From Xestospongia muta (lineage: Eukaryota > Porifera > Demospongiae > Haplosclerida > Petrosiidae), in contig OY848918.1 of the NCBI GenBank assembly GCA_963693285.1, forward strand, positions 9,055,156 through 9,119,155: a DNA stretch of 64,000 bases, in the 5' to 3' direction. Positions 54,894 to 64,000 of the stretch are shown here, piece by piece. Each line of letters starts with the position of its first letter. The stretch's first letter is position 1. The notes below the pieces were generated by a model. That model saw only the letters and a program-made list of their open reading frames with translations, searched no databases and was not told the DNA's origin. Both the position numbers and the translations under genes were made by a program.

Positions 54894-57164
54894 TCAATAC
54901 ACTACTAGTCTATTGTTGTCATAATCACAAACATACAAATATCCATCTTTATCAAATTTAATTTCACATGGATGTTTAAATTGATCCTCACGACTACCTT
55001 GTCTTCCAAAACTACGCTTAAAGTGACCATCGGTAGTAAATATAGTGACACGATGATTGCCCAACTCGGTAACATACAGTAAACTATTATCATCTATTGC
55101 GATTCCTGATGGATGATGCAGTTGTCCAGGACCAGCTCCTTGTTCACCAATCTGACACAAAAACTCTCCCTCAGGAGTAAACTTCTGAATACGATTATTA
55201 TAAGTATCAGCCACATACACTAACCCTTTACTGTCAATAGCAACAGTTCTTGGTTGTTTTAGTTGTGCCTCAGCTGATCCTTCTGTACCAAATTCACGAG
55301 AAAAAGTTAGATCAGATCCTAAGACTTGTATACGATGGTTATTATAATCTGCAATGTAAATGTGCCCATTTATAGGAGAAATGGTTATGCCACAAGGGAT
55401 ATTAAATTCCAACAGTCCTTTACCTAGTCTTCCAAATGATGCAATACATTCTCCATCCATAGATATTTTCTGAATTTTGTGATTATCGGCAACAAGAATG
55501 AAATTGTCTGGAGTAATAGCTACACCACAAGGAAAAGTTAAGCTGACATTTACAATCTCTCTAGCACTTTTATGACCAATAGCATTTACTTGTTCTCCAT
55601 CTCTATCTAGTATTGTGACACGGTGGCCATTTCGCTCACTTACTATAATAGATCCATTATTGGTAAATGCAATCCCACAAGGTCTTTTAAGTTCAGGTAT
55701 TGTGTATAGTGGAGTTATGTTATCAAGGTAAGGATTAAAAGGAATTACTAGTGAGGTACCTTCAATATGGACACCATTAATGTTGACATCAACGTTATAA
55801 CGACCACGATTTATATGGCTACAATGTATTGTATACACTCCAGGTTGGGTGGTGGTAGTGATTGTAGCTTTGATTGGTGTAGCTGTACCAACTGGTACTA
55901 CACTACAACTGATTGATGATAAAGGAACAGTAAGAAGACTAGAATCAGAACATTGAATAGCTAGTGGGAATGTAACAGTTTTGTCTGTAGTGGCAATTTG
56001 ATTTTGACCAATCTTCCTTACTTTACACTTTTCTAGAACACTAGGTGATAGGTGAACGGTACCTCCAATGTAGGATAGTGTATTAAAAATGCTGCTATTT
56101 TTGATAAAGTGGACATCAGCTTTCTCTTTAGGAGTGAACTCTTCAATGTTAACCTTTTTAGTCACATCACTCATACGTTTCATCATTTGTGTTGTAGAAG
56201 TCACCAATTGTTGAGGACTGTCTATCTCAAGACTCTGTTCTACAAATTCCTGACAATCCTTCAAATGATCTAATATTTTTTCAGCTGGTTTCTTTTGTTT
56301 AGATAACTCTTGTAGTTTACTATCAGTGATTGCGTCTACCTCTCTAGTCAGCTGTCTCTCAGACTGATGAATGATATCAATCATTTCTTCCACCATGACA
56401 TGTATCTCTTTTTTGACCACTTCTCCTTGCTCTTTAATTTCATTCTCTCTGTCTGCAAGAAGAGTTAGAACATTAGTAACAGCTGTGATATTTTTGCTAA
56501 CAGTTTCCAAACTTGTTCTCAATTTCTGACAATGTTTGGGATAGCAGTCAGAGACTAAGTCATAATCATGATATTTATGAATACGTACTGTACAGTGCTG
56601 ACAGATAAAAACTTGACATGTTTCACAGAAGATCTCCAAAGGCTTGTTCTCATGTAGTTGACAGTTTGTCTTCTGTATTGGATGAATAAAATGAGGAAAA
56701 GAGGCTGTCACCTCATTCAAACATGTTATCTTGTGATCTGCAGTGACGCTAAATTTCTTATGAATGTCAATACATTTTTGACAGAAAAACTGAACACATT
56801 TTTTACAATAACCTGTTGCATTTGTTGTAGTACATACGTTACAGGTTACTTGTTGATGTTCCGATACTTTGATCATTTGATAGTAGATCTCCTTGAGATT
56901 GTTAATGTGAAAAGCTGCAGGAAAGTCAGCTGCTCCTGTTGGTTCAGGTAACTGGACATGATGACGACAAGTGGGACAGGAAATGAAGTATTTATCTTCT
57001 TGAGGATCTTGTGGCAGACCCTCGAGACATTGCAGACAGAAAGAATGGAAACAAGGTAAGGACTTAGGGTTGGTGTAGAGATCGAGACATATAGCACAGA
57101 TGAGCTGTTCCTTTAGTTTATTTAGAGCTAGTGCTGGGGTGACTGGTACTGCTTTTTCTGGTAT
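54894..57164 (-). CDS. TRIM-NHL protein, single-copy locus, start codon uncertain
   Basis: The frame is open over 756 codons: RING (CAICLDLYTNPKSLPCFHSF, then CPTC), B-box 1 (CNVCTTTNATGYCKKC), B-box 2 (CETCQVFICQHC, ending HKYHDYD), coiled coil, filamin domain without poly-Glu, and six NHL repeats ending YVCDYDNNRLVVY. Where relatives have ATG-GCA-GAG this gene has ATA-CCA-GAA (ATA at 57162-57164). The frame stays open upstream to a possible acceptor TTTAACAG (exon start 57223, phase 1), so an upstream exon may supply the start. The first in-frame ATG of this exon (56876) would remove the RING finger. B-box 2 wording is closest to the 10943-13405 subfamily. Confidence 0.8.
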   Translation of the reverse strand: MPEKAVPVTPALALNKLKEQLICAICLDLYTNPKSLPCFHSFCLQCLEGLPQDPQEDKYFISCPTCRHHVQLPEPTGAADFPAAFHINNLKEIYYQMIKVSEHQQVTCNVCTTTNATGYCKKCVQFFCQKCIDIHKKFSVTADHKITCLNEVTASFPHFIHPIQKTNCQLHENKPLEIFCETCQVFICQHCTVRIHKYHDYDLVSDCYPKHCQKLRTSLETVSKNITAVTNVLTLLADRENEIKEQGEVVKKEIHVMVEEMIDIIHQSERQLTREVDAITDSKLQELSKQKKPAEKILDHLKDCQEFVEQSLEIDSPQQLVTSTTQMMKRMSDVTKKVNIEEFTPKEKADVHFIKNSSIFNTLSYIGGTVHLSPSVLEKCKVRKIGQNQIATTDKTVTFPLAIQCSDSSLLTVPLSSISCSVVPVGTATPIKATITTTTQPGVYTIHCSHINRGRYNVDVNINGVHIEGTSLVIPFNPYLDNITPLYTIPELKRPCGIAFTNNGSIIVSERNGHRVTILDRDGEQVNAIGHKSAREIVNVSLTFPCGVAITPDNFILVADNHKIQKISMDGECIASFGRLGKGLLEFNIPCGITISPINGHIYIADYNNHRIQVLGSDLTFSREFGTEGSAEAQLKQPRTVAIDSKGLVYVADTYNNRIQKFTPEGEFLCQIGEQGAGPGQLHHPSGIAIDDNSLLYVTELGNHRVTIFTTDGHFKRSFGRQGSREDQFKHPCEIKFDKDGYLYVCDYDNNRLVVY

Positions 57165-57223
57165 AATTGAGTATAAACTGTGGAATTCACTGGTTTTGCT
57201 AGTTTGTTGAAAGCCAATTCTAC

Positions 57224-58380
57224 CTGTTAAATAAGGTATGTCAAATAGAGTAAGGTAAGTTAAAAGAGACCAATATACTACATGAAACCAAACAAGATGG
57301 TATTATAAAAGGTCATTCTAATGTTGTGCTGGTATTGAATCAATTACTTTTTAGATAGAATATTTGCCTTAACTATACAGTAGTGTTGGAAATAGTGAGA
57401 AATGAAATTAACGTATGTGTTATAATAACTGTATTCTTAATAATTCAATCTACTCATATTGCAATGTTGGCCATGAAAGATTAAAACTTATCATGCGTAT
57501 GTAAGAATTGTCTCTGAGTAACATTGCTTTTAACAACTCTTTAGTCTTCAACATTAGAAAATTTTAGTCTTTAAAACAACCTTTAGAATAATCTTAGGAT
57601 GATTTTACTATTATCTTGTTTACTTCTAGCTTTTAAAAATATACCAGCATATTAATGTGCATGTTGTTTTAGTGTAGCTCAAATACAGACCAGCAATATA
57701 GGAAGTCATTGATCTTTGTAAATGACATGCAATTTGTTAGAACCATGTATTGCCGACAAATTAAGTGATCATCAATCTTACAAATAATGCTGTGCATTAT
57801 AGATTGTTTAAAGATAAATCACATGACTGCTTAAGATATAAATAACAAAAATGCACACACATCTATTTTATAAGTTTCTACCTTTATTCATACACAATAC
57901 CAACCAATATACATGTACATGTGTTATATAAAATGTTTATAAACATGCAATTGAGTCAGACTTTCCTCTTTGCTAATGCACATGTACAAAAATGGTCTAT
58001 AGAAAAAGCAGGTAAGGTCTGACTCCAAAAATAAATGATTTGGAACAGCCTAAAATAATCCAATTTTGAAAGGAACAGTATCAATTGAATTTCTACCAAT
58101 AATGGATTATACCAATGATCCATTTATGGATAACTTTCTATTATTTTCAATTCCATCCAAAAACAGATTGTACATATGATCCAGTTGTGGAAGATTTCAT
58201 CCATTATTCTTCACTATATAAGACAAAAGTGATATGAATCATCTAGATCTCGATTATTTTATACCATCATCAAATCATTCATTATTGGATTATTTGAGGC
58301 TCTTACCAATCATACATTTTTGGAACAGGAACATATCTCAGAGTAGATTAATTGCTAGCTTATGCTAAGTTAATTGTTAA
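57224..58380. other. Intergenic stretch between TRIM-NHL and Death-domain genes
   Basis: AT-rich, no gene recognised. Any upstream exon of the TRIM-NHL gene would have to lie here or beyond, but none was identified with confidence. Confidence 0.5.
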
Positions 58381-61300
58381 TTAGCAGTTACCTTTGTTGT
58401 CATTATATTTTTCATCAGCTAATTGTACTATAGTCACTCCAATGTGTTGTAGTTCCTTCAACACATCTGGATCTTGGAGATCTTTCACAATAGCAGGTAG
58501 AACAGAAGGCAGTATAGTATATGTAACAATAATACATTCAGATGAAAATTCTTTAGGAGCAAGTGACCCAGCCCAGTTAGGAAACCGATCGTTAATATAA
58601 TCATGCCAGGTAAGCATGCTTTTTTCAGGCCAAGGACTCTCCAGACGAAACATTACTTCTGGAAGTCCAACAGCAGTAGTTGGAGAGAGATCAGGATAAT
58701 TATGGAATACTTGCATTAGAAGACTAAAGCTTGATGCATTAAGAAGATGTTTATACTCACTCTCATAATGATCGAGCTGTTCTTTAACTTTAGAATCATC
58801 TACTTGTCTATTGATCACTTTCAACAGACCATAATTGAGATATCCAAGGAAACGATTATCAATTAGAAAATTAAAGAGTTCATCTACTGTTGCTACAGAG
58901 CTCAACTTGTCTCCGTAAACTTGAATTGACTTGGAAACATTGCTAAGATTTTGTACAATCATTGAACGAACACTCAACTTTACACATCGAAGATTGTGAT
59001 CATTGACAGAAACTTGAACAGCTACAAGAAGCGAACAAAACTCTTCCTTGAGTTTCATAGCTATAATTGCTAATTCTGGCACATGCTCAGTTTTCTGGCA
59101 GAGTTTATCTACAATTGGAGTGAGAAGTGTATTATAAACAATAGATGTTAGTTAATTTATTAAAACTAATGCCAACAGAATACACTACATATCACGCATA
59201 TTGTCAACATTATACATAATTATATAAATTATAATATTTTATGCATATATTATATAATATAAATTAAATTAGAATATATAAGAAAAGTGGTGGTTAAGAG
59301 GTGTATAGATATTACAATATCAAGTTGCTTCCACAATAAATAATATAGTGGGACTATGCTAAATTATATATAGAGTGGCATGAAAAAATCTTTGATCAAT
59401 GTTAAATTGTTAACTCTAAGATGAGGAGACCTGGTTAATAGTTTCAGTCTATTGTAAACCTGCCTGATCTGTAACTGATTTAATTATAAGCAGGCTAGTT
59501 TATTATAGTCATTGAGTGCATTGAAGAGATAAAGCACTTTTAATATCACATTTTATTATTTTACACCACTAGATTAATGAGCTCTAAATGATTTAAATCA
59601 TACCTAATAAGCTAGTTGGTGAAGATGTTGAGGTACCATTTTTTTCTGATGACACACTATTGTTATCTATATATAACAAAGAAAACATCTATGTTGAATT
59701 ACTGAGTACTGGCTTTCAAATATTATCATGTTGGATAGACAGATTAGAAAATTATAATTTAGTTTATTCATAATGTAATTACATCTTAATTGTTCCCACA
59801 ATTTATTTTTGATTGAATTTGCTCTACCCTATGTCACTATTATTATATTCTCATTGAAAATCACTTGCCTATAGCTATAGCTAGGTATTGACGTATATCA
59901 TCAGCTTTCTTCTTATTACTAACAATAGGTCCTTCAAGAGCAGAGATCACAGTTTCCCAGGTGACAGGAGATGGCATAGTCTCTATCCATTGATTGATTA
60001 CTTTAAAGAGTTTTATGTTATTGTTGTCTTGACCTCTCTTTAAATCATCTATAACATTTTGAGGAATACTCAGGGCTAAGCCAATGTCATCCCATTTGTT
60101 GTTGATATCATCCAATTTTTCGAGAAGAACATGAGGATCGGGGATCTTCTTTAAAACATCTGAAAAATAGACAGATAAAGTTCAGTATACATTTTAAATT
60201 AGCATAATTGTCATTTTGTTTTACATTTTAGGACAAAAAATTTAAGTAATAGACATTCTGAGATGTTTTCACAATGACATCATACAGTAGCTATAAACAA
60301 TAAATTGTATATATTGTTTTGTAAGTCATTGCTGTAATTTTATTACATGAACACCATCCATATCAAACAAGATTTTAACCTTGTTATGTGTACTTATGTA
60401 TGTTGTATGTCCTCGAGTAAAAGTCAACGCAACTAACTCTTGAGTCATGCTAGTGAGTACGGAAGCCCTAACCGACATTATTGTTTCGTTTACTCTAGAT
60501 CCGGGATTACAGAAGCCCTGTTCACGTTCGAACGGAAGCTTACGAAAGTACGGAAGCCTACTACGGAAGCCGAAGACAGATTCTAATCATACGATGTTAT
60601 ACGAATTGGAATGCCCGTCCTCAGCTTCCGTAAATAACACAGCTGCAATATACAAATGAGGAGCCGAACCCAACTAGGAATTAAGGAATATATGAAGCAT
60701 CATAGGGTATCATATACTATGATTCATGCGCAATAAAACGCGGAGCGAGATTACCACGAATCGACTGTCTACGAGCTGTTTCCAGTTGGATTGGATTCCT
60801 GATTGTGGTTGTATATTGTAATATCTATGTATACTATACACGCTAGTAGTATCATATAGTATAACGCTATTACGTTGCTCACTGCGTATGCGTCACGGTA
60901 TATGACACTATATATAGTTTACAGATGGCGTTTCATAGAAATATTTTTTTACTCATGATCGATTCTAATAGACGGCTCACGGTAATCGTGTATTCTGAAA
61001 TAATTAAAGTTCCACAATGAAAAGAGCTGGCTTATATGTTGCAAGCAATATTTTGCTAGCATTAAGTATATATTAATTATATAAAGAAAACTTGTAGAAT
61101 TAAGTGCAACATATATATCATTGCTTGTTGAAAGCTCTGTGTATTCTGCAATAAAGTTGCACAATGAAAGGAGCTAGTATTGTGAGATAAATAGTTGCAT
61201 ATTATAATTGGATAAAATAAAACAAAGAGACAGACAATATATATATGCCATGTGGTCCAAAATGATGCTTGGCACATTTAAGCTTCTCATGCTAAGCAGT

Positions 61301-61557
61301 AAAAACTGTCTTAGATGCATACCTGTTTCAGGTCCAGGATTGCTTTCAATATCACCCGATAAAATGAGGAGGAATGAGAAAAACAATATTAGAGAGAGTG
61401 CTGAGAGTAGGTTTTTACAACCAGACTGTTCAGTAAGGCTTCTAGCAGCTCCACCCGTCTCCGCTAGACTATAGTCATTTCTGCATCTTTTGTTATACGA
61501 TATTTGGTGACAACACCATAATCCAATGCTACTTCTCCATTGAAAAACATCAATCAT
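58381..61557 (-). CDS. 2A-signal / Death-domain protein, four exons
   Basis: Exons (minus): 61323-61557, 59869-60159, 59604-59666, 58381-59108. All three introns are in phase 1, giving 438 residues. Exon 1 starts at ATG 61557 and contains LLSALSLILFFSFLLIL, then SGDIESNPGP (residues 67-76). Exon 2 is a Death domain (W-DDIGLALSIP-NVIDDL, NNIKLFKVINQW, TWETVISALEGPIV, ADDIRQYLA), a homotypic adaptor fold of apoptotic and immune signalling. Exon 3 is a Ser/Thr-rich linker of 21 residues. Exon 4 (about 240 residues) resembles helical domains seen beside Death modules in sponges and cnidarians, including NRFLGYLNYGLLKVINRQ. Splice sites are canonical except a GC donor after exon 2. The spliced structure is inferred; no transcript evidence. 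Confidence 0.75.
60460..60630. promoter_or_regulatory. Cluster of ETS-type CGGAAG sites inside intron 1
   Basis: CGGAAG occurs at 60460, 60533, 60551 and 60564, and its reverse complement CTTCCG at 60625. The surrounding stretch is less AT-rich and has several CpGs. ETS-family sites (core GGAA, here ACGGAAGC) are typical of animal promoters. The position between the 2A exon and the Death exon would suit an internal promoter. Confidence 0.45.
61330..61353 (-). other. 2A-like ribosome-skipping motif DIESNPGP
   Basis: These 24 bases encode Asp-Ile-Glu-Ser-Asn-Pro-Gly-Pro, an exact fit to the 2A consensus D-(V/I)-E-x-N-P-G-P. At such motifs the ribosome fails to join Gly to Pro and continues with a new chain. 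The preceding residues are Ser-Gly and a hydrophobic run, as in the 2A-like signal sequences known from sea-urchin immune-receptor-type genes and non-LTR retrotransposons. The motif is nine bases from the exon's donor site. Confidence 0.85.
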
Positions 61558-61637: not shown

Positions 61638-62408
61638 CAACTTACGAGTAAAGCTTATTATATAGCGTAGCCGGAAATAATTAGCTTTAATAACTGTTAT
61701 AATTGTCATTTAATTCTAACGGAAATGAATTAGCAGTAATTTTTAAATTATTATGCCTAAGTAATTTTTCATAGCAGTTACGAGCGATTAGTGGCAGTCA
61801 ATAGTTGAAAATTACATGTTGACTTGCTCGAGAAGCAGAGAACTTTTGTATGACATTGTGGTACACTGACATCTTTTATATGCACACTACCTACAGTAAT
61901 AGTATCCTGAAATGACATCCCCATATATTTATAAATATAAAAAATGTTAAAAACTATAAAACTTGTTATTGTCAAGTCACACTACTTCTCTTGGAGTATG
62001 AATAATAAATCTTCTTACTGAAGCTTTGCTATTAGCTTAATTCTACTAGATGCGTACTTGTTGCGACATACTGGAATTATCTGTGTCAGTTACTTTATTC
62101 TTAACACAAGACACTATCTACTGTTTGATTTTAATATGTGGTAATGTTGTTTTGAATAGATGTTTGATTTGATCTTTATTATAATTACATATAAGTAAAT
62201 TCCTCTTAACTTAAGAATTGATGTAATTTATGTATGTTATACAAAAGAGCATATCAAAATCAAATGTCAATGCAAAAACAAAATGCTAATGTTTTGCTTG
62301 GAATTGAACATAATGTGGATTAGTACCTAACACTGTACCTGCTTTTATTTGTATGCACAAGATTTGTACTAAAGCAATTAACTTTGGTGTGATGTAGATA
62401 AAATCTGT
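61638..62408. other. AT-rich intergenic stretch with a decayed repeat copy
   Basis: No gene seen. Around 61955-62000 the text ACTTGTTATTGTCAAGTCAC and what follows resembles the start of the tandem repeat found from 62409 onward, so this may be a decayed member. Confidence 0.5.
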
Positions 62409-64000
62409 ACCTGTAAGTTGATAAACTAACTAATAATATTTATGAGTACAAAACATGTTATTGTCAAGTCACGCCACCTCTCCTAGAGTGTGTATGAATA
62501 TTACTAAAGGATGGATAATAATAATGAAACACCTTAATTCATCTGGACAAGAGCTTCTCATGACATACTTTATTCTTAAATTTGAGACAAGACACAACAT
62601 ATTTAAAACTCCATCAGTTCTTAAAGAAAGATGAATTCACTTCAATATAATAATACATACCAAAATCTAACATCAACACTTTGCCTGTATTTGGACATAA
62701 TGTGGATTATAGTATTATCTAATATTGTATTTACTTTCAATTTTATGTCAACAATATAATCTACATATAATTATAATTAGTTTTGCGTGTTATATGGTGT
62801 CAAAGACACTTGAGAAGCTTCTCAACTGACCAAGTATAGTTATGAATATTATTATTTAATATCAATGAAAACTGACTCCTTAATTCAGTCAAACTTGCTC
62901 GAAGATATTTCCACTTTTTTTTAGATAGACTTGCATTAGGATATCATATTTATATTTGCAGATTACTATCTTACTGTAATCTTTTGGAAGAAGTGTTGTA
63001 TAATTAATTATCACTGTAATTAATATTTCATGATATTAGAGATGATATGATGATAGCGATGGACCAAGATGATCAAAAGTTGTTAATAATAAGCTATGAA
63101 AATGAAAATTTTATAATTCTTAGTTATGCACTACATGATTTACTGGTAACTACTAAAAAGTTTACTTTAGAAATGAACTTATTTTATTTACATCTACATA
63201 CCTGTAAGTTGATAAACTAACTAATAATATTTATGAGTACAAAACATGTTATTGTCAAGTCACGCCACCTCTCCTGGAGTGTGTATGAATATTACTAAAG
63301 GATGGATAATAATAATGAAACACCTTAATTCATCTGGACAAGAGCTTCTCATGACATACTTTATTCTTAAATTTGAGACAAGACACAACATATTTAAAAC
63401 TCCATCAGTTCTTAAAGAAAGAGGAATTCACTTCAATATAATCATACATACCAAAATCAAACACTTTGCTTGTATTTGGACATAATGTGGATTATAGTAT
63501 TATCTAATATTGTATTTACTTTCAATTTTATGTCAATAATAATCTACATATAATTATAATTAGTTTTGCGTGTTATATGGTGTCAAAGACACTTGAGAAG
63601 CTTCTCAACTGACCAAGTATAGTTATGAATATTATTATTTAATATCAATGAAAACTGACTCCTTAATTCAGTCAAACTTGCTCGAAGATATTTCCACTTT
63701 TTCTTAGATAGACTTGCATTAAGATATCATATTTTTATTTGCAGATTACTATCTTACTGTACTCTTTTGGAAGAAGTGTTGTATAATTAATTATATTTGT
63801 GGGTACACTGTAATTAATATTTCATGATATTAGAGATGATATGATGATAGCGATGGACCAAGATGATCAAAAGTTGTTAATAATAAGCTATGAAAATGAA
63901 AATTTTATAATTCTTAGTTATGCACTACATGATTTACTGGTAACTACTAAAAAGTTTACTTTAGAAATGAACTTATTTTATCTACATCTACATACCTGTA
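62409..64000. repeat. About 0.79-kb tandem repeat, two copies and continuing
   Basis: ACCTGTAAGTTGATAAACTA starts at 62409 and again at 63200, with near-identical sequence following. The same start recurs at 63994 as the window ends. Periods are 791 and 794 bases. Differences between copies are single bases and small indels. Each copy contains GTCAAGTCACGCCACCTCTC and CAAAGACACTTGAGAAGCTTCTC. No convincing gene lies within. Confidence 0.9.

Follow-up and report, generated by a model that had tools for sequence, protein, structure and literature searches.

A predicted Death-domain gene of the sponge Xestospongia muta begins with an exon that is one copy of a large leader family. The gene lies on the minus strand at positions 58381 to 61557 of a 64,000-nucleotide stretch of contig OY848918.1 (hereafter, the window; C2:9055156-9119155 in a 158-Mb genome of 28 contigs). 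Its leader opens with a motif that is conserved in the family, carries a hydrophobic segment farther on, and closes with a StopGo/2A-like core, and it ends in a splice donor whose phase matches that of the following exon, for which a death fold is predicted. Related leaders stand on the same strand ahead of Death-like and NACHT exons, and their 2A residues are conserved, so that the leader looks like a shared, selected module and not like an oddity of one gene. We consider it probable that such a leader is mostly released by skipping, which would yield a cytosolic Death protein together with a minority of membrane-routed fusion protein.

The Death-domain gene and its leader exon

Assembly of the gene from the DNA gave four minus-strand exons (61557-61323, 60159-59869, 59666-59604, and 59108-58381) that form a frame of 438 codons followed by TAA, with all three introns in phase 1. 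An earlier reading of this stretch (here, the original prediction) had described a hydrophobic run of about 17 residues directly before SGDIESNPGP, a phase-1 end at CAG|GTATGC, a Death exon joining in the matching phase, and two more phase-1 exons that complete a 438-codon frame; our reassembly agrees on these points and gives the run as LLSALSLILFFSFLLIL. Exon 1 encodes, in order, MIDVFQWRSSIGLWCCHQ, a linker, the hydrophobic LLSALSLILFFSFLLIL, SGDIESNPGP, and the residues ET, and ends with one further base. In the feature list below and throughout, ratios of nonsynonymous to synonymous differences per site (pN/pS) are descriptive values from uncorrected pairwise counts over related copies, for whose inclusion the 2A motif was not required.

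61323..61557, minus strand: exon 1, the 2A leader; 78 codons plus one base, with the phase-1 donor CAG|GTATGC
61504..61557, minus strand: N-terminal motif MIDVFQWRSSIGLWCCHQ, family form MIDxxQWRxxIGxW; pN/pS of ~0.2 to 0.4 across copies, and matches to its pattern in the genome
61420..61503, minus strand: linker, residues 19-46; weakly conserved in the family (pN/pS, ~1.0)
61354..61410, minus strand: hydrophobic segment LLSALSLILFFSFLLILSG, residues 50-68, with the purely hydrophobic run at 50-66; Kyte-Doolittle mean of 2.42 over 19 residues
61330..61359, minus strand: StopGo/2A core SGDIESNPGP, with DIESNPGP at 61353-61330; predicted skip between Gly75 and Pro76 (61333/61332)
60160..61322, minus strand: intron 1; GT-AG, 1,163 bases, phase 1, with the acceptor phase also checked across Death-like exons
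59869..60159, minus strand: exon 2, predicted death-fold domain; phase 1-1, start without an in-frame Met
59667..59868, minus strand: intron 2; GC-AG, from ATAG|GCAAGT (donor at 59868-59863) to ATATATAG|AT, phase 1
59604..59666, minus strand: exon 3, Ser/Thr-rich linker; 63 bases, phase 1-1
59109..59603, minus strand: intron 3; GT-AG, phase 1
58381..59108, minus strand: exon 4, a possibly DED-like helical part and a ferredoxin-like alpha/beta part, by predicted structure; ends in TAA

The Death exon is entered in phase 1 at TTTTTCAG|60159, as had been proposed. The further proposal that this is the next acceptor after the leader does not hold in full: two acceptor-like sites, at ~61147 and ~60996 and each preceding AATACAC, lie ahead of it inside intron 1 and, judged from their sequence, could give rise to a variant transcript. 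The Death exon starts without a Met of its own, and a skipped product would therefore begin Pro-Glu-Thr-Asp. A Pfam scan of exons 2 and 4 found no NACHT domain, and no genome NACHT match lies near C2:9.11 Mb; we therefore rejected a reading of the window gene as an NLR.

With its start at residue 50, the hydrophobic run does not have the position of a classical N-terminal signal peptide. The original prediction of a 2A-like signal-sequence exon on a Death gene stands as regards a conserved 2A at the end of a hydrophobic leader, in matching phase with a death-fold exon, an arrangement that is repeated in a paralog and genome-wide. In the intact copies of the family, leaders are 63 to 79 residues long and the 19-residue hydrophobic stretch begins at residue 39 to 53. 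By Kyte-Doolittle hydropathy, a 19-residue stretch averaging ≥1.8 is present in 110/110 intact leaders, and the best such stretch stops 3 to 10 residues ahead of the skip Gly.

Statements on folds rest on VIA-align Z values and, for the Death exon, also on the ranking of matches and on Pfam matches among its relatives. The Death exon itself matches PF00531 with an expectation value (E) of 0.059 and 13.9 bits, below the Pfam cut-off of 22.6; the family is carried by 8 of the 120 listed relatives and matched at an E value of 0.0058 in 1 of 11 aligned relatives. In the structure comparison, the predicted structure of this exon resembles death domains, FADD being the closest, and we accordingly assign exon 2 a death fold by prediction. 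The exon 4 model (predicted local distance difference test score, 77.5) finds its best death-fold matches for the helical part in the DEDs of FADD and caspase-8/cFLIP, which is suggestive only of a DED identity for this part. Foldseek gave no significant match for either predicted model (best E values, 0.32 and 0.031).

The leader family and its downstream partners

A genome search with the 78-residue leader returned at least 149 matches at an E value of ≤0.001, itself included, a lower bound as 150 of 173 candidates were scored. The matches concentrate on C4 (41), C12 (37), C14 (33), and C3 (14). Patterns searched at the DNA level tell the same story: D(V/I/M)ExNPGP has 150 matches in the 158 Mb and QWRxxIGxW has 120, against 0 for either pattern reversed, and 96 of the 100 listed QWRxxIGxW places fall within matches of the whole-leader search. 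With 150 DNA matches against none reversed and at least 149 whole-leader matches, a chance motif was rejected.

We read 124 of the 147 listed copies. The frame from Met to NPGP is open in 110 of them, and NPGP is kept in 120 and lost in 4; one otherwise open copy has lost its Met. A GT follows 7 bases past NPGP, in phase 1, in 114 of the 120 copies that keep this motif, and in the remaining 6 it lies at +4, +10, or +13, all of which are also phase 1. On the acceptor side, an open phase-1 AG was present just upstream of 22 of the 24 Death-like exons examined (of 31 matches). Nine of the copies read carry GIELNPGP, and all nine have in-frame stops. These form a C14 subfamily (C14:5.10-5.22 Mb) and may represent one event; no Death-like exon was found within 2 kb of the single member with enough downstream sequence. 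Two more divergent leaders that also end in 2A, L126 (IWRARIGLF...) and L136 (IQWRARIGSW...), stand outside the main list, the latter followed by a NACHT exon at C1:31814939.

Conservation is uneven along the leader. In the 115 copies without early stops, pN/pS was 0.29 for residues 2-8, 0.35 for residues 9-18, 0.34 for the hydrophobic segment, 0.20 for SGDIEx, and 0.15 for NPGP, with 1.00 for the linker, whose indels make for poor alignment and push its ratio toward 1. The 27 copies that are <75% identical gave a similar profile (0.22, 0.38, 0.38, 0.15, and 0, respectively; linker, 0.98), and over all 124 copies the NPGP ratio was 0.14. Copies were found by similarity to the window leader, so the sample favors conserved ones. 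In the 27 divergent copies, NPGP codons vary silently (pS, 0.41) with no amino-acid change (pN, 0). Taken together, these values indicate that the 2A core and the N-terminal motif are held at the protein level, while the linker drifts.

What lies downstream of the leaders was counted by distance and strand, using for Death-like exons the 150 best of 1,689 first-look candidates. A Death-like exon occurs within 2 kb downstream on the same strand in 21 of the 149 leaders and in none of three control orientations; within 8 kb, the counts are 28 against 2, 0, and 0. A NACHT exon lies within 4 kb downstream of 36 leaders (against 6 for the upstream side of the same strand and 0 and 2 in the other orientations), and for 46 of the 98 NACHT exons a leader is found in the 8 kb that precede them. 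Among 24 leaders in loci read at greater length, 18 (18/23 intact) are followed on their own strand by a Death-like exon no more than 2 kb away, against 0/24 on the opposite strand and 0/7 upstream on either strand. Pfam searches (E value, 0.01) of 10 open reading frames (ORFs) downstream of leaders identified NACHT in two, an ankyrin giant, a COR-A protein, and a subthreshold Death match, with no Pfam family in 5 of the 10. Death-like exons are very numerous in this genome (1,488 and 1,689 first-look candidates for two queries, 150 scored each), and many of the listed ones are on C4, C1, and C6.

A profile built from 20 leaders and run against a protein collection matched 544 clusters at an E value of ≤0.01. 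The core (D/G/C/N)(V/I)ExNPGP is kept in 115 of the 120 relatives listed; 43 are ≥95% identical to a leader read here (median best identity, 89%), and the rest may be other copies or come from other species.

The closest comparison for the window gene is a paralog, L002, at C2:9168-9172 kb, ~56 kb away. Its leader is 94% identical and is followed, as in the window gene, by a Death exon with the same acceptor and a counterpart of exon 3; its intron 1 is ~3 kb, and the GC donor of intron 2 (ATAG|GCAAGT) is common to both genes. Between the two leaders there are 7 synonymous differences over 49 sites and 5 amino-acid differences over 179; for the two Death exons, the corresponding values are 12.7 over 58 and 33.3 over 221. 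No exon-4 relative follows L002 among the exon-4 family matches, the next large ORF being a B-box/NHL gene.

The genome contains 88 family matches to exon 4, itself included, and 12 of them are preceded on the same strand by a leader no more than 6 kb away (opposite strand, 0; downstream, 3 and 0). One locus, L017, carries a leader, a Death exon with an unclear acceptor, and an exon-4 relative (32% identity) that starts with the same TTGTAG|ATAAA. In the closest exon-4 relatives, L124 and L125 (C2:7.33 Mb and C13:2.02 Mb), exon 4 is also entered in phase 1. The Death-like exon of these loci is another one, which has a Met of its own, and neither a 2A nor a QWR pattern was found in the 3.7 and 4.8 kb upstream, which led us to reject a simple addition of the leader to an older gene. 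For the same reason the window gene looks, on the sequence of these two loci, like a fusion of a leader-Death 5′ part with the 3′ exons of another gene via interchangeable phase-1 introns.

RING/B-box/NHL (TRIM-like) genes lie at window positions 54894-57302 and at L003 474-2966 and L002 2403-4322; as they stand beside both the window gene and the paralog, a duplication of the whole TRIM-NHL and leader-Death block seems likely. A tandem array, whose units measure ~0.79 to 0.80 kb (95 to 99.8% alike), starts ~850 bases upstream of exon 1 and spans ~9.3 kb, from window positions 62408-64000 on to C2:9126849 (L001 1-7850).

Proposed mechanism and competing explanations

In the explanation that we favor, exon 1 would be a copy of a phase-1 leader module used before death-fold, NACHT (NLR-type), ankyrin, and COR (ROCO-type) genes. 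Here it would be spliced to a FADD-like cytosolic protein with a death domain followed by DED-like and ferredoxin-like parts. The sequence DIESNPGP fits the core (D/G/C/N)(V/I)ExNPGP of StopGo/2A-like elements, and by analogy with these the present leader should skip. At Asn-Pro-Gly|Pro, most chains would be released as a 75-residue leader with its hydrophobic tail near the C terminus, and the separate Death protein starting Pro-Glu-Thr would stay in the cytosol. A minority of chains would escape skipping through formation of the Gly-Pro bond; these would keep the hydrophobic segment and be routed to a membrane. The interpretation in the original prediction is partly supported: the leader anatomy and its conservation agree with it, and one transcript would balance two localizations by analogy with the sea-urchin experiments (PMC4981915).

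Only unskipped chains could use the hydrophobic segment as a signal-anchor. Ending only 3 to 10 residues short of the skip Gly, the segment should not yet have left the exit tunnel when skipping occurs, so the released leader would be a peptide with a hydrophobic tail, resembling tail-anchored proteins. As the family has a conserved N-terminal motif and a drifting linker, this peptide may be a product and not only a targeting signal. We tentatively raise the possibility, about which we have some doubt, that the leader is a gene product of its own, a tail-anchor-like micro-protein of 75 residues whose motif MIDxxQWRxxIGxW is kept in >100 copies as the partner changes. If so, each such gene would give, at a ratio of ~1:1, a membrane peptide shared by all of them and a cytosolic sensor or adaptor that varies, with the 2A making the two separable.

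Several observations weigh against the explanation that we favor. The gene model is read from DNA sequence alone, and a full-length protein search (7,996 candidates scored) found nothing that covered >57% of the protein. The hydrophobic run begins near residue 50, unlike that of a normal signal peptide, and the charge on the N-terminal side of the stretch differs in sign among copies; membrane insertion and topology are therefore uncertain. Two of the 24 Death-like exons examined have no obvious acceptor (that of L017, with CGG for the expected CAG, and one exon of L010). No Death-like exon turned up within 2 kb downstream for 5 of the 23 intact leaders whose sequence extends that far: that of the paralog has its Death exon at 3.07 kb, three continue to a NACHT exon (C14:588392, C14:596297, and C12:4905259), and the fifth precedes an ORF of 2,211 residues. 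The contrast for NACHT exons is weaker at 8 kb (45 downstream versus 20 upstream on the same strand; 0 and 3 in the others), although same-strand upstream NACHT exons are expected in tandem clusters. Finally, all 27 listed protein-collection relatives that extend >18 residues past NPGP run into intron-like sequence and not into a Death exon, as is expected if they are genomic ORFs.

The leader might instead, along the lines of the original prediction, be a signal sequence and nothing more, with skipping efficiency deciding how much of the Death protein is cytosolic and how much is secreted or membrane bound. This has a direct precedent in sea-urchin NLR leaders (PMC4981915), and the hydrophobic segment is kept in every intact leader at a pN/pS of ~0.34 to 0.38. 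It leaves unexplained, however, why residues 2-18 (~0.2 to 0.4) are under about the same constraint as the hydrophobic segment when the intervening linker is free; in addition, the hydrophobic stretch begins only at residue 39 to 53, and a Death-DED protein would seem to have no evident lumenal role. We regard this reading as unlikely. A membrane anchor that merely ends like a 2A and does not skip, leaving all of the protein membrane bound, might find a parallel in the transmembrane domains of Dysidea avara NLR models (PMC12909245), but a pure anchor would not need the invariant NPGP that is seen in the purely silent variation of these codons in the 27 divergent copies and in the core kept in 115 of 120 listed relatives. 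We regard this reading as improbable.

In the window copy, the leader exon might also form part of an alternative transcript in which it is not joined to the Death exon, as the two AATACAC acceptors between 61323 and 60160 would allow. The phase-1 match and the leader-Death order, which recurs genome-wide and is kept in the paralog, speak against this, and we find it very improbable. Hardly credible, finally, is a 2A-bearing retrotransposon fragment that came to lie upstream of a Death gene by chance, even though 2A is known in non-long terminal repeat (non-LTR) retrotransposons (cited in PMC4981915 and PMC11512398) and this genome has some further 2A copies whose ORFs extend into a PHD finger. 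Of the 10 ORFs scanned downstream of leaders, none matched reverse transcriptase or PHD (E value, 0.01; no genome-wide reverse transcriptase search was made). In the window gene, the 2A is not followed in frame by PHD, endonuclease, or reverse transcriptase but by a phase-1 donor 7 bases past NPGP and then the Death exon. For the family as a whole, a retrotransposon remnant was rejected because leaders end at a 5′ splice site and not in a continuing ORF, their placement is strand specific, and their N terminus differs from that of PHD-type ORFs.

Relation to known systems

Literature searches combining sponge or Amphimedon with 2A-like sequences or ribosomal skipping gave no relevant report, most subscription papers being outside the search, and those combining NLR or innate immunity with StopGo or skipping gave nothing beyond the sea-urchin paper and those that cite it. 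Neither "sponge" nor "Amphimedon" occurs in the main text of the sea-urchin paper (PMC4981915). In the literature searched, the cellular (nonviral, nontransposon) 2A leaders are those of sea-urchin NLRs.

FADD-type adaptors have the order DED and then DD. The window gene resembles them in its predicted death domain, closest to that of FADD, and perhaps in its DED-like part, for which the match is suggestive only. It differs in that the death domain comes first, a ferredoxin-like part is added, and a 2A leader precedes the whole.

APE-type non-LTR retrotransposons (Odon et al. 2013, as represented in papers citing it) also have a leucine-rich stretch with D(V/I)ExNPGP. The PHD-finger 2A ORFs of this genome, which are of a similar kind, lack the MIDxxQWR motif and the phase-1 donor, unlike the leaders. 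Eight non-leader 2A copies (L127, L128, and L130-L135) share a DTVKCV- or VVKCV-like start after the 2A, and the three long ORFs scanned among the non-leader 2A copies have Pfam PHD matches; the eight are probably non-LTR retrotransposon ORFs.

The NLRs of Dysidea avara (PMC12909245) offer a comparison within sponges, with expanded NACHT and DEATH genes and transmembrane domains in some NLR models, although the accessible part of that article mentions neither a 2A nor a leader. Our hypothesis is that those transmembrane domains are leaders of the 2A kind, and leaders like these may explain the transmembrane domains reported in some invertebrate NLR models.

The nearest known system is that of sea-urchin NLRs, as described by Roulston et al. 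2016 (PMC4981915). There, 2A-like sequences occur on 85 of 241 Strongylocentrotus purpuratus NLRs, the 26-residue leader SpNLR2A6 skips at ~80%, and a recoding-dead version with a changed Pro sends a reporter to the exocytic route. A 2026 study widens the core to (D/G/C/N)(V/I)ExNPGP and repeats the dual-targeting view (PMC12846837). Common to sea urchin and sponge are a hydrophobic stretch ending in D(V/I)ExNPGP before immune genes with death-fold and NACHT domains and the proposed partition between cytosol and exocytic route. A place on NLR genes is seen here for the leader family (46/98 NACHT exons with a leader within 8 kb upstream), whereas exons 2 and 4 of the window gene show no NACHT. 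In contrast, the sea-urchin leaders are ~26 residues at the very N terminus, and those here run to 63 to 79 and form an exon of their own, in which the N-terminal motif is conserved and the linker is free; ankyrin giants, COR, and a DD-DED-like protein are among the partners here.

Thus, 2A leaders on immune genes are already known in the sea urchin. New here are a discrete phase-1 exon of this length, intact in 110 of the 124 copies read, partners beyond NLRs, and the conserved motif MIDxxQWRxxIGxW, which is not obviously needed by either skipping or targeting in the published model. One 2A leader exon, with its skipping residues conserved by sequence, appears to be reused before several immune-type gene families. 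This makes it testable whether ribosome skipping sets the location of innate-immune proteins in animals and whether the released leader has a job of its own.

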